DNA of 41,619 nt from the IMG/VR virus record IMGVR_UViG_3300030419_004698, positions 1 to 41,619 of that record; one strand, written 5' to 3'. The notes under the pieces were generated by a model. The model had not been told where the DNA came from, did no database searches, and saw nothing but the letters and a program-made list of their open reading frames with translations. This DNA is from a virus. Shown piece by piece: positions 1 to 41,619 of the stretch. The position numbers were made by a program, and so were the translations under genes. How positions within the stretch are numbered: position 1 is the first letter of the stretch; each line of letters begins with the position of its first letter.

Positions 1-478
1 CTATGTGCTGGTATTCCGCTTCAATTGCGCCGCTGTTGGCGCTGTTCAAGGCGTCAAGCAAAGCGCCGCTATCAAGCGCCTGAAGTGTTGCATCAATGTT
101 GATCTGCTGGTTTATCTCGCGCTTGTCGATCCACAAGCCGGCAATGTGAGCTAATGAATCCAAAGCCTGACGCGCTGCGCTTAGCTGCCGGTGTTCTTTG
201 CCGAGCGCTACCAATTCGAGATACTGATTGATCAAGAAATCACGATCAATATCCTGTTTCCGCTGCGTAGTTGCTAGGTTTTGTTGTTGTACCTTAACAA
301 GATAATCGCGGACCTTAACATGCCTTAACAATCTGCTTGCTGCGCTATTAACTACGGTTTCCGGTTTGTCGCTGCCGTAGGCGCTGCGATACGCTGCTGA
401 TGCATTCCGGCCATTGTTTAGATAATCATTACAGAACATCAATTGTTTATCGTTTAAATCGTGCTTTATTTCAGCCAT
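1..478 (-). CDS. terS: Terminase small subunit, allele A (partial at window start)
   Basis: Open reading frame from ATG at 478 running off the window start; 159 codons are visible and only the last few residues are missing, judged from the second copy. The N-terminus (LNDKQLMFCNDYLNNGRNAS, then a SRLLR..KVRDYL segment) fits the Terminase_2 family, whose N-terminal helix-turn-helix recognises the packaging site. The C-terminal part (helices rich in Ala, Leu and Gln) would oligomerise and contact TerL. Compared with allele B (40800-41288) it is almost identical after residue 60 but differs at many positions in residues 10-56. It is oriented away from the plus-strand operon that begins at 552. 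Confidence 0.85.
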   Translation of the reverse strand, partial: MAEIKHDLNDKQLMFCNDYLNNGRNASAAYRSAYGSDKPETVVNSAASRLLRHVKVRDYLVKVQQQNLATTQRKQDIDRDFLINQYLELVALGKEHRQLSAARQALDSLAHIAGLWIDKREINQQINIDATLQALDSGALLDALNSANSGAIEAEYQHI

Positions 479-551
479 TTATCACCTCGTATTTATTCCT
501 AAAGTTTAGCATTAGTGGCGGCTGATTCTACAACCAAAGCATAAATAGGTA

Positions 552-580
552 TTGACATATGGTGTCCATTCCACTAAGCT
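552..580 (+). promoter_or_regulatory. Putative sigma70 promoter of the left plus-strand operon
   Basis: A perfect -35 TTGACA lies at 552-557, then a 17-base spacer and TAAGCT at 575-580 (the second copy has the better TAAACT). It sits between the divergent small-terminase gene and the first small gene. The TTG of the -35 box could be misread as a start codon, extending the 50-aa ORF upstream; the SD-supported ATG at 615 argues against that. Confidence 0.55.
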
Positions 581-614
581 TGTGGGAAATAAAAACAAGT
601 TTGAGAGGTGCAAC

Positions 615-767
615 ATGAGCGATTACATCGGCTACAGCAGAAAAGTAACCATCGCAATATTGAACGATCACAACATGAGAATAGAGGACTTTAAAGACTT
701 CATAAAATACGTTGGAATTAAAGACTATTACTCAACGAAAGAATTAAAGAATTTCCTAGGCTATTAA
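615..767 (+). CDS. Small hypothetical protein (50 aa), first gene of left operon
   Basis: ATG at 615 is preceded by GAGAGGTGCAAC, the ribosome-binding pattern used across this operon. The product (MSDYIGYSRKVTIAILNDHN...) is mixed charged, with no membrane segment and no recognised domain. It is almost unchanged in the right-hand copy (41425-41577): two amino-acid differences, Ala to Gly early and Ser to Thr near the end. Conservation between the copies supports a real coding gene. Function unknown; position directly behind the promoter suggests very early expression. Confidence 0.65.
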   Translation: MSDYIGYSRKVTIAILNDHNMRIEDFKDFIKYVGIKDYYSTKELKNFLGY

Positions 768-776
768 TAAACAAGC

Positions 777-792
777 GGCCGCGACACCGGCC
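777..792 (+). promoter_or_regulatory. Intercistronic hairpin 1 with CGACAC loop
   Basis: GGCCG (777-781), loop CGACAC (782-787), CGGCC (788-792), followed by AAAATAAGAGAGGT leading to the GTG at 812. It is preceded by AAGC, as are the hairpins at 1192 and 4190. The same hexaloop recurs in the 4190-4213 hairpin on a different stem. There is no T-tract, so it is not an intrinsic terminator. Likely an RNA element acting on the mRNA or on translation of the next gene. Confidence 0.5.
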
Positions 793-811
793 AAAATAAG
801 AGAGGTACAAA

Positions 812-1180
812 GTGAAGACTTACGAATTTTCCACCAAACTGCACAACCGGAAGAATGCCGCCGGTCAAACTGTAGAGAAAGTGAGAGTATGGCTGGAAGA
901 GTCAACCAATAACCGGTTTCTATCTGATGCCGGATTCAAGCGCGGCGCAGCTGTTGATATTGCCATATTCGCCGCCGGTTTTATCAGAATTGCTTTAATT
1001 GATAATGAAGCGACCGAGATTATCGGCAAACGCGCCAAAGTGGCCGGAAAAGCTGATAGAGCCTTATTTGATATCACAAGGAACAGCGACCAAATGCCGG
1101 CCGCATTCCACCCTAAAAACAATTCAACATTAGTTGCACATATCGAAACTGGATTAATAAGGATCACGATTAAAAGCTAA
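812..1180 (+). CDS. Conserved phage hypothetical protein (122 aa), partner of DUF7227-like gene
   Basis: GTG start at 812 with AGAGAGGTACAAA upstream. The product starts MKTYEFSTKLHNRKNAAGQ and has an alternating beta-rich pattern (VRVWLEE, FIRIALID, LFDITR, GLIRITI), suggesting a small compact beta protein. Gly/Lys-rich turns (GKRAKVAGKADR) lie in the middle. From memory, similar proteins sit next to DUF7227-type genes in other phages; that is a recollection, not a search. No catalytic motif seen. The 75-base gap to the next gene holds a strong hairpin. Confidence 0.75.
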   Translation: MKTYEFSTKLHNRKNAAGQTVEKVRVWLEESTNNRFLSDAGFKRGAAVDIAIFAAGFIRIALIDNEATEIIGKRAKVAGKADRALFDITRNSDQMPAAFHPKNNSTLVAHIETGLIRITIKS

Positions 1181-1191
1181 ATAAATAAAGC

Positions 1192-1225
1192 GGCGCTGCT
1201 TAGAACTGCAATTCTGAGCAGCGCC
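1192..1225 (+). promoter_or_regulatory. Intercistronic hairpin 2 (14-bp stem)
   Basis: GGCGCTGCT (1192-1200) pairs with AGCAGCGCC (1217-1225). The stem continues through T1201-G1216 and AGAA/TTCT to a CTGCAA hexaloop (1206-1211). It is preceded by AAGC, as at 777 and 4190. No T-run follows, so termination is unlikely; the next gene's SD (GAGGTATCTAT) lies about 20 bases downstream. Confidence 0.6.
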
Positions 1226-1254
1226 TAATCAATACAGATATTCGAGGTATCTAT

Positions 1255-1971
1255 ATGACTAATCAAAATTTTACAGGCTCATTATTAACCACCACAAGCG
1301 CAAAAATTCAGCATTCTAATGAATTTGGCAGCGACTACTACACCGCAATTATGTATTTAGCGCCATTCGATCTATCAGGCCGCAATGTTTGCGCTTTTGC
1401 TAGTAGTGGTTGCGCTGCCGGTTGTCTCAACACTGCCGGCCGCGGCAAATTCGATAATATCCAAAAAGCGCGAATCAATCGGACAAATTTCTTTTTTGAA
1501 CACAAAGCGATGTTTAAAGATCAGCTTTTTACAGAAATTTTCAAACACCAAAAGAAATCCTGGAAAAATGATTTAATGCCGGCGGTCCGGTTGAATGGTA
1601 CAAGTGACCTAGTTTGGGAATATATATATCCTGATTTGTTTACTGAATTCAGCGACATAATTTTTTATGACTATACAAAATATCCGATCAACAAAAGGAC
1701 ACGACTACCTCAAAATTACGATCTTACTTTCTCAAGGTCCGAAAGTAATCACGATCAGGTATTACCAAATCTTGAGGCCGGCCGACGTGTTGCGGTCGTA
1801 TTCGATACCAAAAAAGGTCAACCATTGCCGGCGGAATACCTAGGTTATCCGGTCGTTGATGGTGATCTGCACGACATGCGTTTTATTGATCCCGACGGCG
1901 TAATTGTAGGCCTACGCGCAAAAGGATTAGCAGCGAAAGATACAAGCGGATTTGTAGTAAAAGCTAAATAA
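1255..1971 (+). CDS. DUF7227-like phage protein with C-x6-C-x3-C motif (238 aa)
   Basis: ATG at 1255 behind GAGGTATCTAT. The diagnostic block is CAFASSGCAAGCLNTAGRG (about residues 46-64), with Cys46, Cys53 and Cys57, followed by KARINRT, AVRLNGTSD (about 120-128), FYDYTK, LTFSRSE and IVGLRAKG near the C-terminus. I recognise this arrangement as the phage family called DUF7227; its biochemical role is not established. Three close cysteines and a repeated beta/alpha pattern invite comparison with metal- or cluster-binding barrel enzymes, but that is inference. A clear, full-length ORF, likely co-transcribed with the 122-aa gene before it. Confidence 0.8.
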   Translation: MTNQNFTGSLLTTTSAKIQHSNEFGSDYYTAIMYLAPFDLSGRNVCAFASSGCAAGCLNTAGRGKFDNIQKARINRTNFFFEHKAMFKDQLFTEIFKHQKKSWKNDLMPAVRLNGTSDLVWEYIYPDLFTEFSDIIFYDYTKYPINKRTRLPQNYDLTFSRSESNHDQVLPNLEAGRRVAVVFDTKKGQPLPAEYLGYPVVDGDLHDMRFIDPDGVIVGLRAKGLAAKDTSGFVVKAK

Positions 1972-2018
1972 ATAAATAGGTGGGCCGCGCATACCTAACA
2001 CGCGGTAAAGGTAAAACA

Positions 2019-2195
2019 ATGGCAGAAAGTAACGAACAAATAATAGCCATGATTTATACGAATGAAAAAGACTGGATGCAAATTAAATCAGTCGTAGGAA
2101 AAATAAATGTGCAATTTGGCTATGTCGTAAATGATGAGGACGGTTTAGAAATAGATTCACACTTAAATCCAAACAAAAAATATGAGGTGCAGTAA
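2019..2195 (+). CDS. Small hypothetical protein (58 aa)
   Basis: I choose ATG 2019 (MAESNEQIIAMIYTNEKDW) because AAAGGTAAAACA lies at SD distance; the longer frame from 1980 would run through a short inverted repeat (CCGCG 1985-1989 / CGCGG 2001-2005) that looks like leader. Acidic small protein, no recognised domain. Its stop overlaps the next ATG (TAATG), implying translational coupling. Confidence 0.55.
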   Translation: MAESNEQIIAMIYTNEKDWMQIKSVVGKINVQFGYVVNDEDGLEIDSHLNPNKKYEVQ

Positions 2196-2368
2196 TGGCA
2201 ATAGATCTAACAAATAAACCACTAACGCGGACCGAAAAAAGAGCGCTGGAACAAGGGCCAAAGCTGCTTAAAAAAGCGCGGCAGGACCGCAGAAAAAAGC
2301 AGCAGAATAAAAACCTGGATGAGGTGACTGAATGGGCCTATTTTGAAAGTGTATTTTTAGGCGCTTAA
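2195..2368 (+). CDS. Small basic hypothetical protein (57 aa)
   Basis: Starts in the TAATG overlap with the preceding gene, with GAGGTGCA at SD position. Very lysine/arginine-rich centre (KLLKKARQDRRKKQQNK) followed by an acidic/aromatic tail (NLDEVTEWAYFESVF). Could bind nucleic acid; no family recognised. The coding stretch for NKNLDE is repeated, 17 identical bases, in the gene at 2463. Confidence 0.55.
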   Translation: MAIDLTNKPLTRTEKRALEQGPKLLKKARQDRRKKQQNKNLDEVTEWAYFESVFLGA

Positions 2369-2383
2369 TTTCCATCTGATGAT

Positions 2384-2402
2384 GGCCGGTTAGCTACCGG
2401 CC
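2384..2402 (+). promoter_or_regulatory. Intercistronic hairpin 4
   Basis: Perfect inverted repeat GGCCGGT (2384-2390), loop TAGCT, ACCGGCC (2396-2402), in the 94-base gap between two small genes. No T-tract follows. Similar in size and GC-rich stem to the hairpins at 777, 1192 and 4190 in the same operon. Confidence 0.5.
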
Positions 2403-2462
2403 GAAACTCTGCGGATATGAGTCATGGATAGCTAAATTAAACGAATTAATCAAGGGGGAATT

Positions 2463-2660
2463 ATGGATCATAGAGCCGGCGCAGCTTTAACGGCAATATG
2501 TTTTAAGTATGGACCGCTGGAATATAGCCAGCGGCTAAAGCATAAAGGCGCGTCAGATGAACAGGTATATAAAATACTGGCCCAGAGTCAGGATAATAAA
2601 AACCTGGATGAAAAGGCGGAGAAAATAAGAGAGAATGCGCACACAAAGGGGGTGCATTAA
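2463..2660 (+). CDS. Small hypothetical protein (65 aa)
   Basis: ATG 2463 preceded by AAGGGGGAATT. Begins MDHRAGAALTAICFKYGP, ends in a charged helix (NKNLDEKAEKIRENAH). No recognised domain. The TAATG overlap with the next gene at 2660 indicates coupling. It shares a 17-bp direct repeat with the gene at 2195 (2306-2322 and 2595-2611). Confidence 0.6.
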   Translation: MDHRAGAALTAICFKYGPLEYSQRLKHKGASDEQVYKILAQSQDNKNLDEKAEKIRENAHTKGVH

Positions 2661-3034
2661 TGGATAAATATGAACAGCTAGCTACCGATTTCAGCGACGT
2701 AGTACGCAGCTATATATCAGCGAATGATATACATCTGATTCTTGAGGATTTGGGATCAACATTCGACCATTCATCAGGTAATCTCATGGTGAGACTTTCA
2801 AAATATTTTGATTACCATATGACTATGTTTGAAATGGTTGAAGAATATTTCCCTGAGTATAAAGGGAAAGAAATACGCGGCCATGACGCATTCTGGTACA
2901 ACTACAACAAAGAGATCAGAGCATACGAGAAAAAAGGCTATGAAGCTGACAGGCCTATTCACGACCTGATCAGAATAGCTCTCAGGATAGCCGTAGATAA
3001 TAAATTTTTCATAAGTGAAGAGGTGCAGTCATGA
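2660..3034 (+). CDS. Hypothetical acidic protein (124 aa)
   Basis: ATG 2660 in a TAATG overlap, with GGGGGTGCATTA as SD. Predicted mostly helical and acidic (MFEMVEEYFPEYKG, YEKKGYEADRPIHDLIRIALRIAVDNKFF). No membrane segment and no known motif recognised. It overlaps the next gene by 4 bases (ATGA). A cytoplasmic early protein of unknown function. Confidence 0.65.
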   Translation: MDKYEQLATDFSDVVRSYISANDIHLILEDLGSTFDHSSGNLMVRLSKYFDYHMTMFEMVEEYFPEYKGKEIRGHDAFWYNYNKEIRAYEKKGYEADRPIHDLIRIALRIAVDNKFFISEEVQS

Positions 3035-5051: not shown

Positions 5052-5422
5052 CTGTTAAATCCAGGTCCTACGGACATGAACACGAGGGGAAATATGTCAC
5101 GTATGATATATATCCCCACGAGGACAACATCCACGCGAAAGTAGAATGGAATGAATACGAAAACCAGTACGTCTTACAGAGCTACGGCGTATGGCGAAGA
5201 ATGTTTCAACTGGAAGGCACATCGAACTATCTTTTGCTTGGAGACTACGAGGACATTGATGTCCTAAAGGGTATTAATTTTATATCCGAGCAAGAGTTCC
5301 AGTCAGCTATTAACAACACGACATTCGCCGATCTGAAACTGTTAAATGTTCCCCTCTCAAAGTACCACTACTCGGATGCAGATATAGCAGAAATAAACAA
5401 AGGCATCGGGGAAGGTCCATGA
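5048..5422 (+). CDS. Hypothetical protein (124 aa)
   Basis: ATG 5048 overlaps the previous stop; SD CGAGGTGCATC. N-terminus rich in His and Tyr (YGHEHEGKYVTYDIYPHEDN), then beta-like segments (YVLQSYGVW, NYLLLGDYEDID) and a helical C-terminus. No recognised domain or membrane segment. Overlaps the excisionase-like gene by 4 bases, so both are probably translated together. Confidence 0.6.
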   Translation: MTVKSRSYGHEHEGKYVTYDIYPHEDNIHAKVEWNEYENQYVLQSYGVWRRMFQLEGTSNYLLLGDYEDIDVLKGINFISEQEFQSAINNTTFADLKLLNVPLSKYHYSDADIAEINKGIGEGP

Positions 5423-5754
5423 CCGAACAATTCTTTAACGCACGAGAGGCCGCCGATTATCTTAACCTGAGCCGACGCCAGGTAGACAGGTACATTGAGG
5501 CCGGCAAACTCGTCGCTGTCAAAAAGGGTGTGACTTGGCAGATAGCCAAGTCCGCCCTCGATAATATCCAACGCCCTCAGAGAGGCGGACACGACCGCGT
5601 CATGGTAGGTAGACTCATCAAGTCCCGAAAGAACGCGGAAAAACTGCTTGATGACAAGATGGATTCAGATTCCTGGACTGAGGCCGAGCGTGAAATTGTA
5701 CGAGGTGAGAGATCGGCATTTGATGAGGTGGCTAGAAAGTCTGGGTGGCAGTAG
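5419..5754 (+). CDS. xis: Excisionase-family HTH DNA-binding protein (111 aa)
   Basis: ATG 5419 in an ATGA overlap. Residues 1-50 (FFNAREAADYLNLSRRQVDRYIEAGKLVAVKKG...W.I...ALD) are a classic HTH_17/MerR-like winged helix used by phage excisionases: AREAADYLN is helix 1-2, SRRQVDRYIEAG the recognition helix, VTWQI the wing. The C-terminal half is a charged helix that could mediate cooperative binding. It is the last plus-strand gene before the attachment region and converges on the integrase, which is the expected place for a directionality factor. A regulator of the operon is the alternative. Confidence 0.75.
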   Translation: MTEQFFNAREAADYLNLSRRQVDRYIEAGKLVAVKKGVTWQIAKSALDNIQRPQRGGHDRVMVGRLIKSRKNAEKLLDDKMDSDSWTEAEREIVRGERSAFDEVARKSGWQ

Positions 5755-6009: not shown

Positions 6010-6033
6010 GGTGTACATTTTGGTGTACATTTT
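6010..6033. repeat. Tandem 12-bp repeat, probable integrase arm sites
   Basis: GGTGTACATTTT occurs twice without a gap, the second copy overlapping the integrase stop codon (6032-6034 on the minus strand). The same TGTACA core recurs across the tRNA fragment at 5760-5793. Arm-type sites bound by the N-terminal domain of lambda-type integrases are short direct repeats at such positions. Confidence 0.65.
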
Positions 6034-7354
6034 ACGCTCCGCGTGCATTCCTCAAGTCAAATTCACCCATCGCTGTATCCATTTTACTTGCAACACTCGC
6101 AACTTTTATATCTCTCACGTTGTCATATATTAACATTGTAGTTGATAGCTCTGTATGACCAAGCATTCTCATGATTACTTTCGGATCAACACCCTGTTCT
6201 GCTAACAGCGAAGTATATGCGTGTCGTAACTTCCTTAAAGTCATATCAGGGCGACCCATAGAGGAGCAAATAGTGCGGACAGTATCTGCAACCTTGTCGG
6301 GGTTTAGAAACTCTCCAATTTCGTTAGCAAAGACAAGTGATTCTTCAGTCCAGTTGTACTCGGCATTATCTTTTTGATATTGACGATGGTGGTCAAGAAA
6401 TATTTTTAATTTCGGAGATATAGCAGACCGTTCTCCGACACTTCCCTCGGTCTTTCCCCACGGTCTGATGTAATGTCCGACTCCCCTTTCCTTTGAGCGG
6501 ACGACAGTCTGATTAACTGAGACTATCTGTTGACCGTGCTTTTCTTTAATGTCCGACCATCTCAACCCCAAAACTTCACTGCGACGCAGACCGGTATATA
6601 TGGAAGTAATGATAGGACCTGCATGACGATTTGATCCAAGTAGTTTGATCAATTCCCTTAAATCAGAAGCGGATATTTCTTTTTCATTTCCAGGTCTGGG
6701 AACTTTCGGTGGTCTGATTTTATTTTGGCCATGCTGGTCAGCAAAAAGATGATACTTCAATATTCCCTGTTCAACACCGTACTCAATCGCTGCATGGTAA
6801 GAACGATAGTGATGCTTTACGGTTAATGGTTTCAGTCCATGACCACCTTCACTGACAGGCTTTTGCAACTCGGAAAAGAACGCCCCAAACATATGCTTGT
6901 TGTTTTCTAAATGGTGAAGAGTAGCAGCACCGAGTGGATGTGGATATTCCATAGTCATGTTGTCTTGATTTCTGACAGCTAGTTTTCTGATGTGTCCACG
7001 ATATCCAGAAGTCGTACTCCACTCAAGCAGTGAAACATAATTGTCATACCAGTAGTATAAAAATTCCCCAAAGGTCATCGTCGAATCACGCGGACTGATC
7101 TTCAGCTTTGCCTGCTCTTCAACTTCATCCTGTAATCTTTGACGTTCCCTTCTGGCACGTTCAATAAACTTACTATCCGCCTCGCGTTTACCGTCGATAT
7201 ACAGTCGCTTAATAGATATTGATCTCCCTTTGGTAATCCTGTTGCCGTACTCGTCTTTCCCCAATTCCAGATTCATTTTTATAGCGTCATCATGACGGTG
7301 ATAGGCAAGGTGCTTTGTAGCGTGGACCTTTTCTTTGAATGTCTGTTTTGCCAT
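6032..7354 (-). CDS. int: Tyrosine-family site-specific integrase (440 aa)
   Basis: ATG at 7354 with a strong SD (AAGGAGAGGACG). N-terminal arm-binding/linker part (residues 1-90), SAM-like core-binding domain (about 91-215) and C-terminal catalytic domain (about 225-415). Visible catalytic residues: Arg257 in TGLRRSEVLGLRW, a candidate beta-hairpin Lys at 301, Arg377 in LRKLRHAYTSLL, His400 in MLGHTELSTT and nucleophile Tyr410 in LIYDNV. The usual first His of the HxxR box is Arg374. It would recombine attP (just downstream) with a host tRNA-Trp gene. Ten bases separate it from the upstream regulator gene, so the two are co-transcribed. Confidence 0.93.
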   Translation of the reverse strand: MAKQTFKEKVHATKHLAYHRHDDAIKMNLELGKDEYGNRITKGRSISIKRLYIDGKREADSKFIERARRERQRLQDEVEEQAKLKISPRDSTMTFGEFLYYWYDNYVSLLEWSTTSGYRGHIRKLAVRNQDNMTMEYPHPLGAATLHHLENNKHMFGAFFSELQKPVSEGGHGLKPLTVKHHYRSYHAAIEYGVEQGILKYHLFADQHGQNKIRPPKVPRPGNEKEISASDLRELIKLLGSNRHAGPIITSIYTGLRRSEVLGLRWSDIKEKHGQQIVSVNQTVVRSKERGVGHYIRPWGKTEGSVGERSAISPKLKIFLDHHRQYQKDNAEYNWTEESLVFANEIGEFLNPDKVADTVRTICSSMGRPDMTLRKLRHAYTSLLAEQGVDPKVIMRMLGHTELSTTMLIYDNVRDIKVASVASKMDTAMGEFDLRNARGA

Positions 7355-7364
7355 CGTCCTCTCC

Positions 7365-8297
7365 TTAGTTCCTTAATGTCTCGTTGAGCTGATCTATTTC
7401 GGCAAAGAAAAACTGGACCTCGTTGCGTACTATCTCCCAGTCATCTGAAGTGAATGGTTCTTTACGATACAGAACGACCTTGACCGTGCCTCTCAGCTCT
7501 TCACCACCACTTGTAAGCCGTCTGTTTCTTTCAAGGTTGATCATCATGATTTGCTGGTGAAGATCATCACCTTTATCTATCGAGTTCTTTATTTCCTCTT
7601 TCAAATCATTAAGATCAAACACACCACCCACGGTCACCGCATAATCACCGTACTTATTATTCAACGCCTGAGTTAAATAGATGAGATAACTGGTATCACC
7701 CTGCACATATGTCTCAGGATATTCCTTGACCTCTGATCCATGCCTTACATACAGTGTCCGCTGAACCGTGAGCCGATCCCATCGAACCTCTCTGCGTAGT
7801 TTGTTGTACAAATGCGTTGCGAATGGCCTCATCTGCCACTGCCATTCATTGTTGGGGACGTAGACCCCTTCATTATTGGTTGGTTCTATATATATAGTGG
7901 GATCTATGTGATCGAGCGCCAACAAAAAACTCTTGTCCAAAAATTCAATTGCACTTGCGGGCATGGTAGCCCCATGCTTTTGAAGCATCTCAATTATTCT
8001 TTTTAATTTCGGGGAAAGTTCATCCTCTTGAAAAGTCTCAGGTGATGGCAGGTCAAGGTATTCAAACAGTTCTTTCATCAACAGGGGATCAAACTTTCGG
8101 ATCTTCCCATTCTCCATACGACTCAACTGCTGACGGCTGAGTTGAGTGCCATCGGCAACCTCTTGTTGGGACAACCCAAGCCTTCGGCGAGCCTGCACAA
8201 CAGCCCTTCCGACACTGCTAGGCACGGACTCCCCATATTGCTCAAAATGTTCATCTAAAAGATGGTCATCTGGTACAGACTTAGCAGTATTTATCAT
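7365..8297 (-). CDS. XRE-type HTH regulator with long C-terminal domain (310 aa)
   Basis: ATG at 8297. Residues about 28-75 form an XRE/Cro-CI helix-turn-helix (VVQARRRLGLSQQEVADGTQLSRQQLSRMENGKI). The remaining 230 residues do not show the Ala-Gly / Ser-Lys S24 peptidase arrangement of CI repressors; they contain an alpha/beta domain (TLYVRHGSEVKEYPETYV, VKVVLYRKEPF). It lies between integrase and a second HTH gene in the minus-strand lysogeny block, so a maintenance repressor or integration regulator is likely. The missing autocleavage domain implies an induction route other than RecA-stimulated cleavage, if it is the repressor. Confidence 0.75.
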   Translation of the reverse strand: MINTAKSVPDDHLLDEHFEQYGESVPSSVGRAVVQARRRLGLSQQEVADGTQLSRQQLSRMENGKIRKFDPLLMKELFEYLDLPSPETFQEDELSPKLKRIIEMLQKHGATMPASAIEFLDKSFLLALDHIDPTIYIEPTNNEGVYVPNNEWQWQMRPFATHLYNKLRREVRWDRLTVQRTLYVRHGSEVKEYPETYVQGDTSYLIYLTQALNNKYGDYAVTVGGVFDLNDLKEEIKNSIDKGDDLHQQIMMINLERNRRLTSGGEELRGTVKVVLYRKEPFTSDDWEIVRNEVQFFFAEIDQLNETLRN

Positions 8298-12493: not shown

Positions 12494-13273
12494 ATGTGGA
12501 TACACGTACCTACAACGCTATTAGTCTCTGCTCAGGATACGACGGAATCCAGCTTGGACTCCGAGAGGTTATCCATGTTAGAACAGTCTGCTACGTGGAA
12601 AACGAAGTATCTGTCGCCCGAATCCTGGCAGCGCGTATGGAAGAGGGATACCTCGATAAGGCGCCTGTCTGGTCTGACGTCAAAGACTTCGACCCTGAAC
12701 CGTGGTGTGGAAAAGTGGATATCCTCTTTGGAGGATTTCCCTGTCAGCCCTTTTCAGTGGCAGGAGAAAAGCTCGGAGAAGATGACCCGAGAAATCTCTG
12801 GCCAGATACAGCCAGACTTATACGGGGACTTGGGGTATCAGTCGTCTTTCTGGAAAATGTCAGCGGACCCGAGTTCCTCAGATACTACTACTCTCGAATA
12901 CGACCTGAACTGGTCGAGATGGATTTTAAAGTTGAGGAGGGATTATTCTCGGCGGCTGAAGTCGGCGCCTCGCACCGAAGGCGTCGAACCTTCATACTGG
13001 CCCACTCCAATGCACAGAGACTACAAGGGGATGGATGGCCCTGGAAAAAAGAACGCCCTGAAGGACCCCCGACTGTACCTCTCTATCCCCCAGGTCCCAA
13101 GGACAAACAGGGATGGACACAACTGCTCTCGGTTCTGCCAGAGGCTCAACCCAGTTGGTGCCGAACACTTGATGGGCCTGCCCCTGAAATGGACATACGC
13201 CTCAGAGCCATTGGCAACGGAGTCGTTCCGGCAGTGGCGGCTAGGGCTTTTAGGATACTTGCGGAGAAATTGA
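12494..13273 (+). CDS. Overprinted +1-frame ORF inside the cytosine methyltransferase gene (259 aa)
   Basis: A complete ORF with its own ATG at 12494, reading +1 relative to the methyltransferase, whose GTG (12496) overlaps it in ATGTG. It stops 5 bases before the methyltransferase does. Recognisable stretches: GVEKWISSLEDFPVSP (about 71-86), PRTEGVEPSYWPTPMHRDYK (about 159-178), LNPVGAEHLMGLPLKWT (about 218-234) and ATESFRQW (about 241-248). These resemble, from memory, phage proteins with WPTP...EWLMGxPxGWT motifs that are annotated as hypothetical or methyltransferase-associated. Those motifs sit over methyltransferase motifs VIII and X. It may be a true second gene or a frame kept open by the methyltransferase sequence. 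Confidence 0.5.
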   Translation: MWIHVPTTLLVSAQDTTESSLDSERLSMLEQSATWKTKYLSPESWQRVWKRDTSIRRLSGLTSKTSTLNRGVEKWISSLEDFPVSPFQWQEKSSEKMTREISGQIQPDLYGDLGYQSSFWKMSADPSSSDTTTLEYDLNWSRWILKLRRDYSRRLKSAPRTEGVEPSYWPTPMHRDYKGMDGPGKKNALKDPRLYLSIPQVPRTNRDGHNCSRFCQRLNPVGAEHLMGLPLKWTYASEPLATESFRQWRLGLLGYLRRN

Positions 13274-28561: not shown

Positions 28562-28729
28562 CTAGTTTAGATTTTTTAATCGTCCTTTGTCAAAGATAAG
28601 ATGAAGATCCGATTTACACTTGGAGCATCTAACCCACATTTCCCCGATAAGTTTCTGGGCAACTTTTCTTCCGCAGTGCGGACACCTTACTCCCTGAAAC
28701 CCATATTCCTTCTTTGCCGTGGTTGTCAT
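28562..28729 (-). CDS. Com-like zinc-ribbon protein (55 aa)
   Basis: ATG 28729 overlaps the stop of the 1648-aa gene (TAATG). RCPHCGRKVAQKLIGEMWVR then CSKCKSDLHL: two CxxC pairs spaced like the Mu Com translational regulator and other small phage zinc ribbons. By analogy it could bind mRNA, possibly the leader just downstream with the terminator hairpin; that is inference. Confidence 0.65.
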   Translation of the reverse strand: MTTTAKKEYGFQGVRCPHCGRKVAQKLIGEMWVRCSKCKSDLHLIFDKGRLKNLN

Positions 28730-31700
28730 TACTGTCCTACAAAAAGCCTGTCGATGTATTCCTGAATATTATTCAGGTCTACGACTCCCGTCTGTCCTGC
28801 GTCACGCTGATCTTTCCTGATCTGTTCGACCATTCCTACAACAATAGGATTCATAGGACTTGTGATCGATCCCCTCTTGAGAAGTACCGCTTCTAGATGA
28901 GGATTTCTCATCCTGATATATTCCTTCTGCTTGCGTGCTTCTTTCTCGAGTCCCTTGATTATTTTTTTGTGCTTGCCATTTTTTTTGTAATCGGCTTTGT
29001 TTGTGGACTTGAGGTACTCTTTGTATTCATCCTCAACGCCGTGAACCTTTGCTATCCTCATCGTTACGTCCCAGTATTCACGCATTATCTGAACGTCATT
29101 GTCGTACTCTTCAATGGCAGCCCTTACCCTCGGGTCCTCGTATCTTTCACCCCTGAATGTGCCAAGCCCTCTTCCGGTAATGTATTCACCGAATTCAGGG
29201 TTTTCCTTGTTGGCAGCAGCAATGATTTCCTCGCGTTCCTCTTCAAAACTGTCGAAGTCCATGTATCCGCTTTTCTCGTCAATATCAAGCTCGAGGTTAA
29301 AGTATTTCTGCGCCCAGTAATCAGCCCGATTCACATCGTCCGGATCGCCTGCTATTTCGGCAAGTGTCTCCTTGTTCTCGTCTTCAAATAATTCATACTC
29401 CTGCGCCCGTTGACGTTTCAAGTTTTTTATTGCTGTACCGACATCTTCAGGTGACGCACCGCTGTTGAGCTTGGATATCAGATCCTGTTCAAATTCAACA
29501 AATCTATTGCTCAACCGTTCAAAGGCAAGCCCGAGATCGTCTTTCTTCTTGGCCTTGAGCCTGTCAATATATTCAACCATTCGAGGATCTTTTTTAATGA
29601 TATCGAGTTCACCTTCAGAGAGATTATCGGGGTCCCATCCAGCCTCATCACCAACTCTCGCGGTCGGGCTTTTTACACCCGCGGCAATCTTTTCACCTGT
29701 GATTTCCTGAAGAAGATCATTCCATGAGAGGGGAGCTGACTTAGTTCCCCAAATCTCACCTGCCGCAAGTGAGATTGCACCACCGATATCTCCCTCGGCG
29801 ACCCTTTCCCCAGCCTGTGGTATTTCGTCTGCGGCAAAGGGAATATGCTGTTCAAGAAAATAACCTGCCCGTTTCAACAGATCGTCTCCGGGAAGCCATT
29901 CGGGATCATTCGGCGCCCATCCTGCTTTGGTTTCCTCTCCTTCAAATGTTTCACCTGTACGCCAATCCCATCCAAGTGCTATCGGACCTGACGCGACTCC
30001 CCTGAAAGCATCAAGGGGAAGTTGCCCCTGCGGCGGGCCTGCCATTAACGTAACCATCATTCTCAGCATTGAATCGTATGGACCGAAAATACTGTAGTCC
30101 CTGCCCTTAAACCTTATCCGCATAAAGTTTGAGTTATAGTTCCACCTACCTTGCTTATCTTTGACCATTACCCTGAAATCGGTTTCGTTACCAAGCGCCC
30201 AGTTAGCACCAACCGTTAGAAGAGTTCCCTGCGATATCATTCTGAGCATTGAACGACGGGCAATTCGTTCCTGTATAGAAGTTTCCATAATCTTTCCCTG
30301 ACCACCCATCATGGCTCTTCGCGCTCTCCCGCCACCCGGAACAATATCGGCAACTGCGCCAATCGGGTCCTTTACCGTACCCTTGGCAGCCCGTCCCATG
30401 CTCTCAAGTCTTGCCTGAAAAAAGCGTGGGGCAAAAAGCAAAAAATCACCAAGGTTTCCCCCGAACTTTTTGCTTCCGTGTCCGGTGGCTGAATTAACTG
30501 CATCACCTATCTCGCGGCCAAGATCCGTACCTTTTATTTCATCCAGCGTGCGACCTTCCGCTAAAAGTTCCTGAACTATATCGTCGGCCCATTCGATTCT
30601 CATCCTCACACCAAGAACACCAAAGGCCCTGTTCGCCTGTTTGATTCCAGGTATCATTCCGATAGTTTTTTGAGCGCCGATAGTGAACTCGTTGTCAATT
30701 TCAATATTGACCCCAAGAGCGCCAAGCTCATCACTTGTAAGTCGTCCGTTAATTCTTGCCTTTTTATTGAAATCACTCAGAAAACTACCGAGAAGTTTAT
30801 CTCCTTTACGAAAGTCAGAAACTTCCAATTCTCTTTTCAAAAGACTATCTGATTCTTTAAGTTTTACATTAGGTAGCCCCCATGCCCGAAAATGCCAGAT
30901 AAATGCTTTAGTGGCCATTACCGGATTGTCATGAAGTCTCAGCAGTCCCTGAATCATCATTGCACTATCGTCAAGAGTTGCCCTGAGAGATCTATATTGA
31001 CTAGCGTGCCACTGATAAATATTAGGGAAGATTGCCCCTGCGCCAGTAGTTGGTTTTTCCGACTCGATTACTTTGTTAATGGTACGGGCAAGTTCTGCCG
31101 GAAAAGATGTTCCGCTCAACTGGGGTAAATTACTGTCGATATAGGAATAACCTCTTGGAGGTTCCTCGGCAAGAGCTTTTACATAACTAAGCTCACCTTT
31201 CAACAACTGGTATTCATCCTTTAGCCCTTTCAATGCGTCCTGTGAATCATAAAGGTTGATCAGAGACCTGATGGCGTTATCATCCATCGTGGCAGCGTCA
31301 CCGTGCGCTTTCTTGATCTGACCTTTTATTCTGTTTATATCTCGCTGTTCGACCTTATCGAGAAGTTTTATGACTCTTGCCTCTTCTTTCTCAAAAGCCC
31401 TGTAAGCATCATCCAAACGCTCCTCGGTTCTTTTCACCTTTAGCAAGGCTCGTTCCTCGTTAATCATGTCACGGCGAGCCTGTATCGCCATTTTGTCCAT
31501 ACCGGCAAGACGGTCTGCCTCGTCTGCCATATCCTGGACCCTGTCCTCAAGGTTGATCTGGTCATCGGTGACCTTATCAACTCTTTCTCTCAGGCTTTCC
31601 GTTCTACGAACCATCTTGTCGTAAACCTCACCGATGCCACCTGCTCTTTCGTATGCGGCGGGATCTGACTCTACAGCACGAGCGAGGTTTCCAAGATCAT

Positions 31701-33675
31701 CTATATCTTTCTGAAGTTTATCGGTAAGGCGGGTCCACTTTTTATCGCTGGTGCGTACCTTTGCTTTACCGCGTTTTAGCTTTTCGTTATTTCTGAGAAT
31801 CTTTCTTACAAGTTCTCTGCCCTCGGTGACTGCCTGCCCTGCAAGAAGTCGGGCCTCCTTTAGGTCTGCCGCGCTGTATTTTCCTGCGACGGCATCCTGT
31901 CTACCCTTGGCTCTTTGAGTGCGTTCCATTGCCTCCGCACCAGCACGCGTTGTTCTGCCGCGGACTCTTTCCATTTCGGCAGCACCTTTCTCAGCGGCTC
32001 TTTCCGCCCGTCTTGCAGCCCTGTCTGCGACCTGTCTGAGAGTCGTGGACCGTACCATTCTGCCCAGAACAGTATTTTTCTTTGAAAGAATTTTCTTTGC
32101 GAGCTTATCGCTTTTCAAGACAATAGGATTGGTTGCAAGGCGACTCGCTTTGGTGGATCTAATAAGATTGCCGTCAAGATCTCTTGCTTCCTTGAGAACC
32201 TTTGCCATGAAAGTATTCCCAACATCAACCCCTGACTTTCTTACATAGGCTTCAACCGCATTTCTGAAACTGTCGTATTTAAATCCTTTTAATATACCTT
32301 CAGACTGACTTGAGAATTTCGCGGTCTTCTTGTGAGTTGCTCCACCTCTTCCAATCCCGGCCTGTGCTGTTTCTTCAATAAATTCACTTTCGGCTCCTCC
32401 TCTTGGAATATAGAACCCACCTTCAGTGATGTCATGTCTGGTACTGAGATCGACCTCAAGTTCGTTGAGGGTATCCTCTATTGGCTTGAGTCTTCTCCTT
32501 ACTTCCTGAAGAGCCGTATGTTGTTCATTGGTCAGAAATTTGCTGTAAGCGGGATAATTTGCCGCAACGTCTGCTATCGTAGGGGGCAATTTCATCCCCT
32601 TAACAGGAGGCAGATTGGGAATAGTTCCGTTATCTGCAATTTGAAAAGCGTCATCAATAAGGTAATCGACTTCAGACGAAATCGATGCAGCAACATTTTC
32701 CCCACTGTCAATTGCTCTTGCCCTTGCGTCTATGGCATTGTCAACCAAATCGTCGTAGACAGAGTTTGTTCCTCCAACCATTTCGATAAGATTGGTTAAA
32801 AGGCTTTCTTTTTTTGTGATGTTTACCTTTACATCTTTGACATTAAAAATGTTCGATTCGGGTGCCTTGATTGTCTGGACCACATCGGGAACTGCACCAG
32901 GTACATCATCTCCACCGCTTCTGCGAAACAACTTTCCACCAACCCAGCTAATTCCATCTGGCACGGCCTTGAATCCCCAGCCAAGCGTCTTACCAGTCAC
33001 ATGCCCGAGCGCACCTTCAAACCCTATAGCAGGAAGAGTCATTTCATAAGCTATCGACTCTGCGGTCCTCATCTTTCCCCTTTCAAAACTTTGGTTCCAG
33101 AGATCCTGACGTTCAAAGTAATCAAGATCTCTTCCAAGTTCATTTCTTTTTTTGGCCAACTGGTTAAGAAAAAACTGCTCGTCTTCTTTATCCAAACCAA
33201 ACAGTCTCTGTGAAATTTGCTCTCTACCGTAGGTTGCACCTTTCCCATACTGTTCTGCGGCCGAAAAAGCTGTAGCCGTAAATGCACCGGGAGGTGTCGC
33301 CATTAGGAAATTTTTTACCGTCTGACGTTCTTTTTTCAGATAGTCCATAAATTCCGGCGTAGGCTGGTACTTCAATCTTCCGTCGGTATGACGAATGAGT
33401 GATGGATCGGCCTTTTCTAGTGCAATCAGTTCCTCGGTTGTCGGGTTTCTGTGTTCAAAACGTGCCATGTATCCCGGATCTGTGACCCTTTCAGGTATCA
33501 GTCCGAAGACAGGGCCTCCGACATCGGTAAGCCAGTTTGATTTTTTGGGCGCGGGGTTTTCAAAATCCTCCGGAAGCTGCGGGAATACGGGTCCCGCAGG
33601 GACTGTTTCGGATTCCTCTCCCTCTGCAAGATTGGGATTTTGCCTGAGCCATGCTTCTGCTGTGTGATGTGACAT
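28729..33675 (-). CDS. Very large internal virion / ejection protein (1648 aa)
   Basis: ATG 33675 in a TAATG overlap with the 859-aa gene. Regions: N-terminal polar part (1-300), an acidic region with an ISSEVDYLIDDAFQIADNG helix, a very basic/acidic coiled coil (about 540-830; RAARRAERAAEKGAAEME, DMADEADRLAGMDKMAI), then a mixed, partly hydrophobic domain (about 900-1260; FGVLGVRMRIEWADDIV, LLFAPRFFQARLESM, GTLLTVGANWALG) and a charged helical C-terminus. No transglycosylase or protease motif recognised. Size and location between portal and scaffold fit the large internal proteins that short-tailed phages eject. Confidence 0.65.
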   Translation of the reverse strand: MSHHTAEAWLRQNPNLAEGEESETVPAGPVFPQLPEDFENPAPKKSNWLTDVGGPVFGLIPERVTDPGYMARFEHRNPTTEELIALEKADPSLIRHTDGRLKYQPTPEFMDYLKKERQTVKNFLMATPPGAFTATAFSAAEQYGKGATYGREQISQRLFGLDKEDEQFFLNQLAKKRNELGRDLDYFERQDLWNQSFERGKMRTAESIAYEMTLPAIGFEGALGHVTGKTLGWGFKAVPDGISWVGGKLFRRSGGDDVPGAVPDVVQTIKAPESNIFNVKDVKVNITKKESLLTNLIEMVGGTNSVYDDLVDNAIDARARAIDSGENVAASISSEVDYLIDDAFQIADNGTIPNLPPVKGMKLPPTIADVAANYPAYSKFLTNEQHTALQEVRRRLKPIEDTLNELEVDLSTRHDITEGGFYIPRGGAESEFIEETAQAGIGRGGATHKKTAKFSSQSEGILKGFKYDSFRNAVEAYVRKSGVDVGNTFMAKVLKEARDLDGNLIRSTKASRLATNPIVLKSDKLAKKILSKKNTVLGRMVRSTTLRQVADRAARRAERAAEKGAAEMERVRGRTTRAGAEAMERTQRAKGRQDAVAGKYSAADLKEARLLAGQAVTEGRELVRKILRNNEKLKRGKAKVRTSDKKWTRLTDKLQKDIDDLGNLARAVESDPAAYERAGGIGEVYDKMVRRTESLRERVDKVTDDQINLEDRVQDMADEADRLAGMDKMAIQARRDMINEERALLKVKRTEERLDDAYRAFEKEEARVIKLLDKVEQRDINRIKGQIKKAHGDAATMDDNAIRSLINLYDSQDALKGLKDEYQLLKGELSYVKALAEEPPRGYSYIDSNLPQLSGTSFPAELARTINKVIESEKPTTGAGAIFPNIYQWHASQYRSLRATLDDSAMMIQGLLRLHDNPVMATKAFIWHFRAWGLPNVKLKESDSLLKRELEVSDFRKGDKLLGSFLSDFNKKARINGRLTSDELGALGVNIEIDNEFTIGAQKTIGMIPGIKQANRAFGVLGVRMRIEWADDIVQELLAEGRTLDEIKGTDLGREIGDAVNSATGHGSKKFGGNLGDFLLFAPRFFQARLESMGRAAKGTVKDPIGAVADIVPGGGRARRAMMGGQGKIMETSIQERIARRSMLRMISQGTLLTVGANWALGNETDFRVMVKDKQGRWNYNSNFMRIRFKGRDYSIFGPYDSMLRMMVTLMAGPPQGQLPLDAFRGVASGPIALGWDWRTGETFEGEETKAGWAPNDPEWLPGDDLLKRAGYFLEQHIPFAADEIPQAGERVAEGDIGGAISLAAGEIWGTKSAPLSWNDLLQEITGEKIAAGVKSPTARVGDEAGWDPDNLSEGELDIIKKDPRMVEYIDRLKAKKKDDLGLAFERLSNRFVEFEQDLISKLNSGASPEDVGTAIKNLKRQRAQEYELFEDENKETLAEIAGDPDDVNRADYWAQKYFNLELDIDEKSGYMDFDSFEEEREEIIAAANKENPEFGEYITGRGLGTFRGERYEDPRVRAAIEEYDNDVQIMREYWDVTMRIAKVHGVEDEYKEYLKSTNKADYKKNGKHKKIIKGLEKEARKQKEYIRMRNPHLEAVLLKRGSITSPMNPIVVGMVEQIRKDQRDAGQTGVVDLNNIQEYIDRLFVGQ

Positions 33676-38237: not shown

Positions 38238-39746
38238 CTATGCAAACGCCGGTAGGCGGATAATTTTTCCGTGGCTCTGTATGCCCCTGTTCTTTTTACA
38301 CATCAGAGCGATGCCGAGTGCCATGACGTAATCGTCGTGAGCGCCGCCCATCGCCTGCGGTTTTTCGCCGGGAGCTGCAATGATCGTTGAGAATTCATCG
38401 AGTCCCTGTTTGTTGGGAATCGTTAAGTGTCCGTCATTGAAAGTCTGGCGAAGTTCGTCAAAAAGGTTCTGGCGGCTCATCCTGTCGGTTCGCCACCCGT
38501 GTTCGCGCCGTGCAGTCTTTCCCCGACCGACGGTCCGTCTGTAGAGTTTCGGATAGTTTTCGTCACGCGCTACCGTAAGAACGGTATCCGAAAAGTTATT
38601 TTCAATTGCCCAGTCGGGGTTGTCATATACCTCGAGCAGATTCATTGATGCCACCGAAAAGTCCTCGGGGGCAAGTGCATTTGTCACAAGGTCAGCAACA
38701 ACATACCCCGAGTTAACATCGAGAATTACGGTCACCGAGTAGTCAAGGCCCACACCGGAGGCAACGTCAGTGCCTGCAACGTACCTTCTTCCGACCCGTG
38801 GCTCCTGGTATATATTAGCGGGTCCCACCTGCCTGATCGGCGCCTTACATTCCTCTGCCATTCCGATAATCATGTCTCTGTCAAAGATGCTTTGAGCTTT
38901 AGGTGGTGCGAGTGCTTCTGTTTCCTCGCCGGGATACTCCTGCTCCATGTACTGTTCGGGACTCATTCCCTCAAGGTCGAGTACCGGAACCGAATCCATC
39001 GTCCTCTCGTACCACTTTTCATCTCTTCCGGGTCTTGCGTGCCACGGAACGAAGAGGGTTTTCCACCCGTTGTCGGGAGCTGCGCGGTAGAGTTCCTTAA
39101 ACAGCGAACCCATCTCTCTTTTATTTGACGTTGATCCCATGATCATCTGGCCACCGCCGTCAATCGTGGGCTTTACTGCCGTGTAATTCTGTGCGTGGTA
39201 CTCATGAAAGTCCGCCTCGTCCTGTATAACGACCGATGCCGTCTCTGATCTTCCCGCATCTTCGGTCGAAGGAAGGGCTAACACCTTTGAATCACGCTCT
39301 GGTATACCTATCTCACTCCTTGAATCGGGGGATAGCGGAGCCTGCCAGTCCTCGGGCAGGTTCTTAAGTATGAAGCGTACTTTGTCAAGAAGTGAGAAGG
39401 CCTCAGTCTGTCCCTTTGAAATCATCAGGACGTTCGTCCCGTGATTAAACGTAAGAAGCCACGCCGCATACGCAGCACACGTCCATGAAAAACCAAGCTG
39501 CCTTGCCTTTAATACCGAAACAAGACGGTTATCAACTATCGCATTCGCAAGATCAACGATGTAATCCCACTTCTGAAAAGGAGCGGCACCACCGGATATA
39601 CCCGAATGTATCTGCGCCCTTTCGAGGATCTTCACATGATCAAGGAAATCAGGTTCCTCCCCAGACGAAATGAAATTTCTTCGGGCGAATTCCTTTTTAA
39701 TTCTCCGAACTGCTTCCTTTCTGTGAGATTCCGGTATAGCAACCAT
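38238..39746 (-). CDS. terL: Terminase large subunit (502 aa)
   Basis: ATG 39746 with AAAGGTAGATTA. N-terminal ATPase: deviant Walker A KARQLGFSWT (about residues 79-88), Walker B VVIQDEADFHEY (about 171-182) and coupling motif GSTSNKREMG (about 203-212). C-terminal RNase H-like nuclease: YVAGTDVASGVGLDYSVTVI (first Asp), IENNFSDTVL and the HDDYVMALGIAL helix with acidic residues. It packages DNA into the procapsid through the portal. The small subunit lies 1 kb upstream rather than next to it. Confidence 0.93.
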   Translation of the reverse strand: MVAIPESHRKEAVRRIKKEFARRNFISSGEEPDFLDHVKILERAQIHSGISGGAAPFQKWDYIVDLANAIVDNRLVSVLKARQLGFSWTCAAYAAWLLTFNHGTNVLMISKGQTEAFSLLDKVRFILKNLPEDWQAPLSPDSRSEIGIPERDSKVLALPSTEDAGRSETASVVIQDEADFHEYHAQNYTAVKPTIDGGGQMIMGSTSNKREMGSLFKELYRAAPDNGWKTLFVPWHARPGRDEKWYERTMDSVPVLDLEGMSPEQYMEQEYPGEETEALAPPKAQSIFDRDMIIGMAEECKAPIRQVGPANIYQEPRVGRRYVAGTDVASGVGLDYSVTVILDVNSGYVVADLVTNALAPEDFSVASMNLLEVYDNPDWAIENNFSDTVLTVARDENYPKLYRRTVGRGKTARREHGWRTDRMSRQNLFDELRQTFNDGHLTIPNKQGLDEFSTIIAAPGEKPQAMGGAHDDYVMALGIALMCKKNRGIQSHGKIIRLPAFA

Positions 39747-39795: not shown

Positions 39796-40149
39796 TTAAA
39801 ATCCTTCTCCGTTTTGTAACCTTTTCTCTGCCTCATAATTTCTATACGCGTGATAACGTTGAATATTTGGTGTATGACCTCTTAACTCTTCAACTGGTTC
39901 GTTGTACATGACAGCGGTAATCGACGTTAGAGGCCCTGATATTTTGAGGTTTGTATCAGCATCAAAAAACGTAAACCCCGTCGCACATATACCTCCCTCC
40001 CCACCGCCATGTAAAAGAAGCGAACCATTTAGGAATTCATAGGAATCAAGTGCAAAACTACTTCGGCCATCTTTGTAGCGATTAACGTCATGCCAGGTAC
40101 CGCTGATGTTAACCTTAACAACGTCATCGACTTCTATGGCCAGCGACAT
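39796..40149 (-). CDS. Hypothetical protein (117 aa) upstream of terminase
   Basis: ATG 40149 overlaps the preceding small gene's stop (TAATG). Beta-rich N-terminus (IEVDDVVKVNISGTWHDV), Gly-rich centre (LLLHGGGEGGICATGFTFFD) and a charged helical C-terminus. Not recognised. Being first in the late operon with terminase, it may be packaging-related. Confidence 0.55.
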   Translation of the reverse strand: MSLAIEVDDVVKVNISGTWHDVNRYKDGRSSFALDSYEFLNGSLLLHGGGEGGICATGFTFFDADTNLKISGPLTSITAVMYNEPVEELRGHTPNIQRYHAYRNYEAEKRLQNGEGF

Positions 40150-40220
40150 TACTTCTTGCCTTTCTTGGACTTTCGGGGCTTCATGGGTTTTTTCTTGCCG
40201 TAACCAACACCTTTGGGCAT
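40149..40220 (-). CDS. Tiny Lys-rich protein MPKGVGYGKKK (23 aa)
   Basis: ATG 40220 with a perfect AGGAGG at SD spacing. MPKGVGYGKKKPMKPRKSKK plus a short tail; ends in a TAATG overlap with the next gene. Tiny MPK..GYG.KK-type proteins are frequent in marine phage structural regions. Strong SD and overlap argue that it is translated. Confidence 0.65.
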   Translation of the reverse strand: MPKGVGYGKKKPMKPRKSKKGKK

Positions 40221-40306
40221 TTCTTCCTCCTGAGAACTCGGTGGAAAACGATAGGGGAGATATGATTGCGAGAGGTGCATCAAACCCAATACATATCCCC
40301 TAATTT

Positions 40307-40335
40307 AAAATAGCAAAATAAAGCGGTCGTTTCAA
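40307..40335 (-). promoter_or_regulatory. Putative late-operon promoter
   Basis: On the minus strand: -35 TTGAAA (40335-40330), 17-base spacer, -10 TATTTT (40312-40307), about 90 bases before the first late gene. It is AT-rich downstream. A host-type promoter for terminase, portal and virion genes. Confidence 0.5.
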
Positions 40336-40385
40336 CCACCATAAACAAAAAACAACAGCAAGAAAGAAAGAAGCAAAGAAAGAAT

Positions 40386-40416
40386 ACCCATATATATATA
40401 TAAAATATATATGGGT
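40386..40416. repeat. AT-rich 11-bp inverted repeat
   Basis: Arms ACCCATATATA and TATATATGGGT are exact reverse complements around a 9-base AT loop. Easily melted or extruded DNA. No T-tract suggests it is not a plain terminator. Confidence 0.6.
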
Positions 40417-40608
40417 AAATTCATTAATATAAATACTAAGATACCTCCCCTCCCCAGAAGATTCCGTCCAGGCTTTTATGGCCTTACCGTCATCTTCTAT
40501 GACACCCCTAAAAGAAACACACAGATCCCAGAGCAAAGGAGCTGGGTAGCAGATACCGAATAGCTACAAAAACGGTTGCGAGACGTACCCTCTCCGGAAC
40601 GCGCGTGC

Positions 40609-40799: not shown

Positions 40800-41288
40800 T
40801 TAATCGTCGTCTATGTGCTGGTATTCCGCTTCAATTGCGCCGCTGTTGGCGCTGTTCAAGGCGTCAAGCAAAGCGCCGCTGTCGAGCGCCTGAAGTGTTG
40901 CATCAATGTTGATCTGCTGGTTTATCTCGCGTTTGTCGATCCACAAGCCGGCAATGTGAGCTAATGAATCCAGCGCCTGACGCGCTGCGCTTAGCTGCCG
41001 ATGTTCTTTCCCAAGCGCTACCAATTCCAGATACTGATTAATCAAGAAATCGCGGTCAATATCCTGTTTTCGCTGCGTAGTTGCTAGGTTTTGTTGTTGT
41101 ACCTTGACAAGATAATCACGGACCTTGTCATTTCGCAACAATCTTGAAGCGCTGCTGTTAATGTGCGCTTCACTTTGGGTACTTCCGTATGCCTGACGAT
41201 ACGCGCCGGATGCATTCCGTCCATTGTCAAGGTATACATTGCAAAACATCAATTGCTTTTCGTTTAGATCGTGTTTTATTTCAGCCAT
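40800..41288 (-). CDS. terS: Terminase small subunit, allele B (complete, 162 aa)
   Basis: ATG 41288 with CAGGAGT upstream. LNEKQLMFCNVYLDNGRNAS, then ASRLLRNDKVRDYLVK, is the Terminase_2 HTH region (residues 8-60). The C-terminal two thirds (TTQRKQDIDRDFLINQYLEL, RQLSAARQALDSLAHIAG) are helical for ring formation, ending EYQHIDDD. Differs from allele A (1-478) mainly in residues 10-56, the DNA-recognition part. It should bind the packaging site and deliver DNA to TerL. Confidence 0.85.
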   Translation of the reverse strand: MAEIKHDLNEKQLMFCNVYLDNGRNASGAYRQAYGSTQSEAHINSSASRLLRNDKVRDYLVKVQQQNLATTQRKQDIDRDFLINQYLELVALGKEHRQLSAARQALDSLAHIAGLWIDKREINQQINIDATLQALDSGALLDALNSANSGAIEAEYQHIDDD

Positions 41289-41361
41289 TTTTTACTCCTG
41301 ATTTATTCCTAAAGTTTAGCATTAGTGGCGGCTGATTCTACAACCAAAGCATAAATAGATA

Positions 41362-41390
41362 TTGACATATGGTGTCTATTCCACTAAACT
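41362..41390 (+). promoter_or_regulatory. Rightward promoter, second copy
   Basis: TTGACA at 41362-41367, 17-base spacer, TAAACT at 41385-41390. The -10 is one base nearer to consensus than in the left copy (TAAGCT). Confidence 0.5.
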
Positions 41391-41424
41391 TGTGGGAAAT
41401 AAAAACAAGTTTGAGGGGTGCAAC

Positions 41425-41577
41425 ATGAGCGATTACATCGGCTACAGCAGAAAAGTAACCATCGGAATATTGAATGATCACAACATGAGAATAGAAGACT
41501 TTAAAGACTTCATAAAATACGTTGGAATTAAAGACTATTACACAACGAAAGAATTAAAGAATTTCCTAGGCTATTAA
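41425..41577 (+). CDS. Small hypothetical protein (50 aa), second copy
   Basis: ATG 41425 behind GAGGGGTGCAAC. Same protein as at 615-767 with two amino-acid changes (Gly for Ala, Thr for Ser), while several nucleotide differences are silent. This supports purifying selection on a real gene. Function unknown. Confidence 0.65.
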   Translation: MSDYIGYSRKVTIGILNDHNMRIEDFKDFIKYVGIKDYYTTKELKNFLGY

Positions 41578-41586
41578 TAAACAAGC

Positions 41587-41602
41587 GGCCGCGACACCGG
41601 CC
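41587..41602 (+). promoter_or_regulatory. Intercistronic hairpin 1, second copy
   Basis: GGCCG-CGACAC-CGGCC, identical to 777-792, followed by AAAATAAGAGAGGTACA at the window end. Its identity in an otherwise diverged repeat is consistent with constraint. Confidence 0.5.
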
Positions 41603-41619
41603 AAAATAAGAGAGGTACA

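Follow-up and report, generated by a model that had tools for sequence, protein, structure and literature searches.

Diverged small terminase alleles at the two ends of an uncultured phage contig probably reflect one circular locus assembled from two strains and an exchanged DNA-binding-domain tract

The packaging site (pac) of SPP1 overlaps the ribosome-binding site (RBS) and the DNA-binding-domain codons of gene 1 (PMC6316719). In P22, pac lies inside gene 3, the small terminase gene (terS) of that phage, and TerS proteins are poorly conserved between phages (PMC9611059). Lambda, 21 and N15 use the same motor with different TerS recognition helices and cognate R sites, and each packages its own DNA (PMC4669245). 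Exchange of TerS specificity is of a known kind; the present locus shows clearly which unit is exchanged, here inside the gene and in uncultured phages. The locus occupies both ends of the window, the whole stretch of DNA that was analysed, which at 41,619 bases is the entire virus record of that length (IMG/VR record IMGVR_UViG_3300030419_004698). Compared with gp1 of SPP1 and SF6, the TerS of the window is alike in its predicted DNA-binding fold, in the position of terS near terL and in the correspondence between the pac tract and the tract exchanged here, but identity within the domain is only 23%. Lambda, 21 and N15 are cos phages with winged-helix TerS proteins and cosB sites, whereas the TerS of the window is of the Terminase_2 type, and, unlike in those phages, the exchange lies within terS and between near-identical strains. 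For P22 gp3 the likeness is confined to the position of pac inside terS, relative to the site proposed below.

Two terS alleles are encoded on the minus strand, one at each end of the window. Allele A (2–478) has 159 codons, with its 3' end cut by the window start, and matches PF03592 (Terminase_2; E = 9e-11) and phrog_51 (E = 2e-17), and allele B (40800–41288) is complete at 162 aa, with matches to the same two families (PF03592, E = 1e-10; phrog_51, E = 6e-17). Both alleles score ~43 bits against the curated PF03592 cut-off of 26.1. The large terminase gene, terL (38238–39746, minus strand; phrog_2, E = 8e-29), is near terS, with two small ORFs between them; these ORFs (39796–40536) lack family matches, and the interval that they occupy is variable among relatives. 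A small divergent ORF (615–767, plus strand; 50 aa from ATG) without a family match is found next to terS in both copies.

The TerS encoded by allele B was modelled with AlphaFold2; the model is confident over residues 10–60 and of low confidence in the C-terminal part, and predicts an N-terminal HTH fold of the SPP1/SF6 type. Residues 7–67 of the model (pLDDT ~90) align with the DNA-binding domain of SF6 TerS (4zc3) at a Z-score of 9.9 and an rmsd of 1.3, and the same model compares with 2cmp (Z 9.7) and 3zqq (Z 8.4). A sequence search of solved structures returned the Pam5 small terminase (E = 5.5e-6). Amongst phage records, TBLASTN of TerS identified two Synechococcus phages (34%), TBLASTN of TerL identified only relatives with ~25% identity and BLASTN of window positions 1–3000 had no match, while none of the GTDB genomes encodes the TerS of the window.

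The left end of the window (1–809) aligns to the right end (40811–41619) without gaps, with 77 mismatches and 90.5% identity, reproducing the imperfect overlap of 809 bp (about 90% identity, 77 substitutions and no net indel) reported in the preliminary description. The mismatches are strongly clustered, with 44 in the densest 120-bp stretch, a count reached in none of 20,000 shuffles. The preliminary description had also assigned about 40 changes to positions 301–420, and exactly 40 are present there, but 420 does not hold as the limit of the tract, as positions 421–490 contain another 15 mismatches and extend the divergence to about 301–490, up to the terS RBS. This tract holds 55 of the 77 mismatches. 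To one side, a shallower shoulder of divergence occurs at 122–300 (12 mismatches) and the window edge (1–70) is identical between both copies; to the other, the region upstream of terS (491–809) has 8 mismatches (about 3%), with the non-coding upstream part likewise ~3% different. The ends do not represent a true direct terminal repeat, the halves of which would be identical, with exact agreement limited to the first 70 and the last 77 bases.

The best explanation as a whole, to which we assign a probability of roughly 0.86, is a circular overlap of two strains combined with an exchanged tract in terS that spans the RBS and the DNA-binding domain. The genome would then be that of a temperate phage from a mixed population, assembled as a circle of ~40,810 bp that the window traverses once and overruns by 809 bp. 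The contig would open on one strain's terS allele (strain A; the first reading of the locus, 1–809) and close on the allele of a second, conspecific strain (strain B; the second reading, 40811–41619). One locus would appear twice because the contig starts and ends in alleles of different strains, and the alleles would differ because the tract carrying the RBS and the DNA-binding domain was exchanged, the strains remaining nearly identical in the C-terminal codons, upstream of terS and at the genome edge.

Loci with a related TerS were collected from viral contigs (n = 16, 15 of them near enough for comparison), and the TerS N-termini of the window and its close relatives fall into two classes; distinct sequences of classes A and B number only about eight. 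Class A comprises the left copy and the loci L004, L005, L008, L010 and L011 (motif ..SDKPETVVNSAASRLLRHVKVRD..), and class B the right copy and L003, L006, L007 and L009 (motif ..STQSEAHINSSASRLLRNDKVRD..). Between copies A and B, synonymous divergence (pS) is 0.71, 0.73, 0.31 and 0.10 for codons 1–17, 18–58, 59–110 and 111–159, respectively, or 0.72 for codons 1–58 together, and pN for the same four segments is 0.02, 0.24, 0 and 0. Thirteen of the 14 amino-acid differences between the alleles are in codons 18–58. In trees of codons 1–58, copy A groups with L004, L008 and L010 and copy B with L003, L006 and L009, and the two copies as sisters are rejected (p-AU 2.5e-52), while from codon 59 onward the window copies group together and it is the class A and class B clades that are rejected (AU tests, p 0.006 and 0.008). 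The N- and C-terminal segments of terS have conflicting trees, with AU tests in both directions, as in an intragenic recombinant, and the allele exchange in the recognition domain that had been proposed from the mosaic pattern of substitutions is supported.

The exchanged tract consists of the RBS and codons 1 to ~60 and is located on the minus strand at 301–490 in copy A, which groups with L004, L005, L008 and L010, and at 41111–41300 in copy B, which groups with L003, L006, L007 and L009. Over codons 18–58, copy A is 94% identical to L004 and copy B 81% identical to L003, while exact 38-base patterns from each allele had no match in any other contig of a viral collection from which very close records may be missing. 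A comparison of N-terminal TerS divergence in relatives, which the preliminary description had put forward as a check, recovers swaps of this kind elsewhere: in metagenome 3300025282, the class B locus L007 and the class A locus L011 share 96% identity in terL over the shared part and 54% in codons 18–58 of terS, and L006 and L007 are 91% identical to L008 in the upstream region and 49% identical in the DNA-binding domain. The RBS and DNA-binding-domain part of terS has been swapped between two old allele classes that are also found in related phages, and recombination in the conserved flanks (the upstream region and codons 60 onward) would move the tract.

Nine of the 14 residue differences fall within residues 37–54, which in the model include the turn, the recognition helix (40–52) and the positions just after it, and the changed residues in the HTH domain suggest that packaging specificity may be altered between the alleles. 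A competing possibility, which appears doubtful and concerns only the specificity part of the reading, is that strains were joined and terS sequence was exchanged as described, but that the exchange is ordinary phage mosaicism at a variable locus and leaves packaging specificity unaffected, the coincidence of the crossovers with the domain being due to chance. The surroundings of terS are generally variable, with 47–76% identity in the non-coding upstream region between most lineages and 55–89% identity in the terS–terL interval in most cross-lineage pairs with terL at 84–97%, but the tract is bounded by the RBS and, approximately, by the point at which the DNA-binding domain ends, close relatives carry two recurring classes and no continuum, and the differing residues are gathered in the turn and recognition helix.

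The DNA exchanged would carry the recognition helix along with its pac-like target, as in SPP1. Since the pac of SPP1 overlaps the corresponding DNA, the tract may constitute a cassette of recognition domain and target, and because both helix and target would be in the tract, a swap could change specificity in a single step with self-recognition kept intact; we advance this cassette tentatively, by analogy, and at somewhat below even odds. If true, a single crossover could change packaging specificity, which would explain the fast divergence of TerS beside a conserved TerL. A candidate element for the target, to be regarded as a lead only, is located on the minus strand of each copy, at 292–320 in copy A (two GTTAAGG boxes with a spacing of 21 bp in codons 54–63, a form that occurs a single time in the window) and at 41102–41130 in copy B (boxes GACAAGG and GTCAAGG at the same spacing). 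Within the window, the direct repeat (GTTAAGG in class A, G[A/T]CAAGG in class B) occurs only in the two terS copies. There is little synonymous change at codons 53–55 and 60–62, which form the 21-bp spaced repeat, and signs of constraint extend over codons 60–66. The conservation is strong only with the spacing fixed after the fact (p 0.0004–0.014) and modest with free spacing (p 0.01–0.12, the value being 0.12 with thinned sequences and free spacing). Among 5,380 codon pairs, codons 54 and 61 come eighth in third-base agreement, which is suggestive but confounded by shared descent. A search with a broader TerS alignment identified no further close TerS beyond the class A and class B set. It is conceivable, though unlikely, that two or more specificity types are kept through exchange of a ~190-bp cassette (recognition domain and target, with GTTAAGG as type A and G[A/T]CAAGG as type B) under negative frequency-dependent selection, for example through escape from packaging parasites or from packaging by a co-infecting relative.

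Evidence that the two window ends are a single locus comes from the arrangement of terS in relatives. In L005, L006 and L007, one terS is positioned between homologues of window positions 5748–756 and of 40384–36410, and the gene order of the more distant L012–L017 is consistent with this arrangement. Exactly one TerS is present in each of 52 TerS-bearing loci, a set that includes some overlapping stretches from a single contig. Further, the left terS copy (478–2) leaves the window three codons and the stop codon early, while the right copy (41288–40800) is complete. Because relatives link both window ends through a single terS and the left copy is without its last codons, the window can be read as a circular genome with ends from two strains, and these relatives, together with the end signatures, point to two strains having been joined in one contig. 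Of the two options offered in the preliminary description, the relatives favour the joining of strains over a diverged terminal duplication. A true long duplication with two maintained terS paralogues would account for a copy at either end of the record, as observed, but is highly improbable given that same truncated left copy, the absence of a second copy in each of the 52 loci and the single terS that joins both flanks in relatives; moreover, the terminal redundancy of headful and direct-terminal-repeat phages is identical, as the ends are copied from one concatemer. The repeated ends are an assembly effect, and the domain exchange behind them is real.

Two further explanations address the divergence of the N-terminus itself. 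Rapid positive selection in one lineage, in place of the import of an old allele, would be in line with the concentration of 13 of the 14 amino-acid changes in codons 18–58, but is about as improbable as a terminal duplication, as pS there (~0.72) is near saturation and declines to 0.10 in the same gene, pN is lower than pS and the same two versions are present in other lineages; after import, selection may still maintain both terS versions. Errors of sequencing or assembly in a single allele, for which the position of the copies at the contig ends, where assembly is weakest, could be invoked, have a negligible probability and are refuted by the recurrence of each version in independent contigs (L004 and L003, at the identities above), with both frames open, no indel and all but one of the changes outside the HTH synonymous, and neither errors nor recent selection would raise synonymous change in one domain only.

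The ends of the contig also carry a signature compatible with the joining of two strains. Strain variants break and mix contigs in de Bruijn metagenome assembly, in which variants spaced beyond k are impossible to phase (PMC11443906). Near-identical terminal repeats that arise from strain mixture are a close parallel, with the difference that a single functional domain is exposed at the breakpoint in the window. At the right end, the final 77 bases (41543–41619) have an exact counterpart at 733–809; no longer 3' suffix recurs in the window, and this is the only exact run of >70 bases common to both copies. The longest recurring 5' prefix is 70 bases and the remaining exact runs common to both copies are ≤58 bases. 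A k of 77 is customary in SPAdes. In a k = 77 graph, the two passes would have no common node before the final 77-mer, at which the path would meet itself and stop. This account of the contig end is supporting evidence only and fits the right end alone, the left match being 70 bases. Failed circular closure of a viral contig can reveal functional polymorphism, in this case in a packaging-recognition domain too different between strains to merge, and IMG/VR records whose ends nearly match should not be labelled as having terminal repeats on that account.

Across this group of phages, terL is about 71–98% identical in most relatives and the TerS profile score falls from >300 to <70 bits. Within L012–L017, L019–L025 and L033–L062, terL is 77–84% identical to that of the window and TerS scores extend from >300 down to ~60 bits; in this group of relatives TerS changes far faster than TerL.

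Elsewhere in the window, the phage looks temperate based on genes for a tyrosine integrase (6032–7354, minus strand), an HTH repressor-like protein (7365–8297, minus strand) and an excisionase-like HTH_17 protein (5419–5754, plus strand). A GP88 family protein (1255–1971, plus strand; PF17338, E = 2e-43; phrog_1617) is encoded near terS. A C-5 cytosine DNA methylase (PF00145; 12496–13278, plus strand) is almost fully overlapped by a 259-codon open frame on the same strand in another frame (12494–13273), which is probably a by-product of composition. The late gene block includes a 1,648-aa protein (28729–33675, minus strand) with no Pfam match, which is perhaps an internal virion protein.
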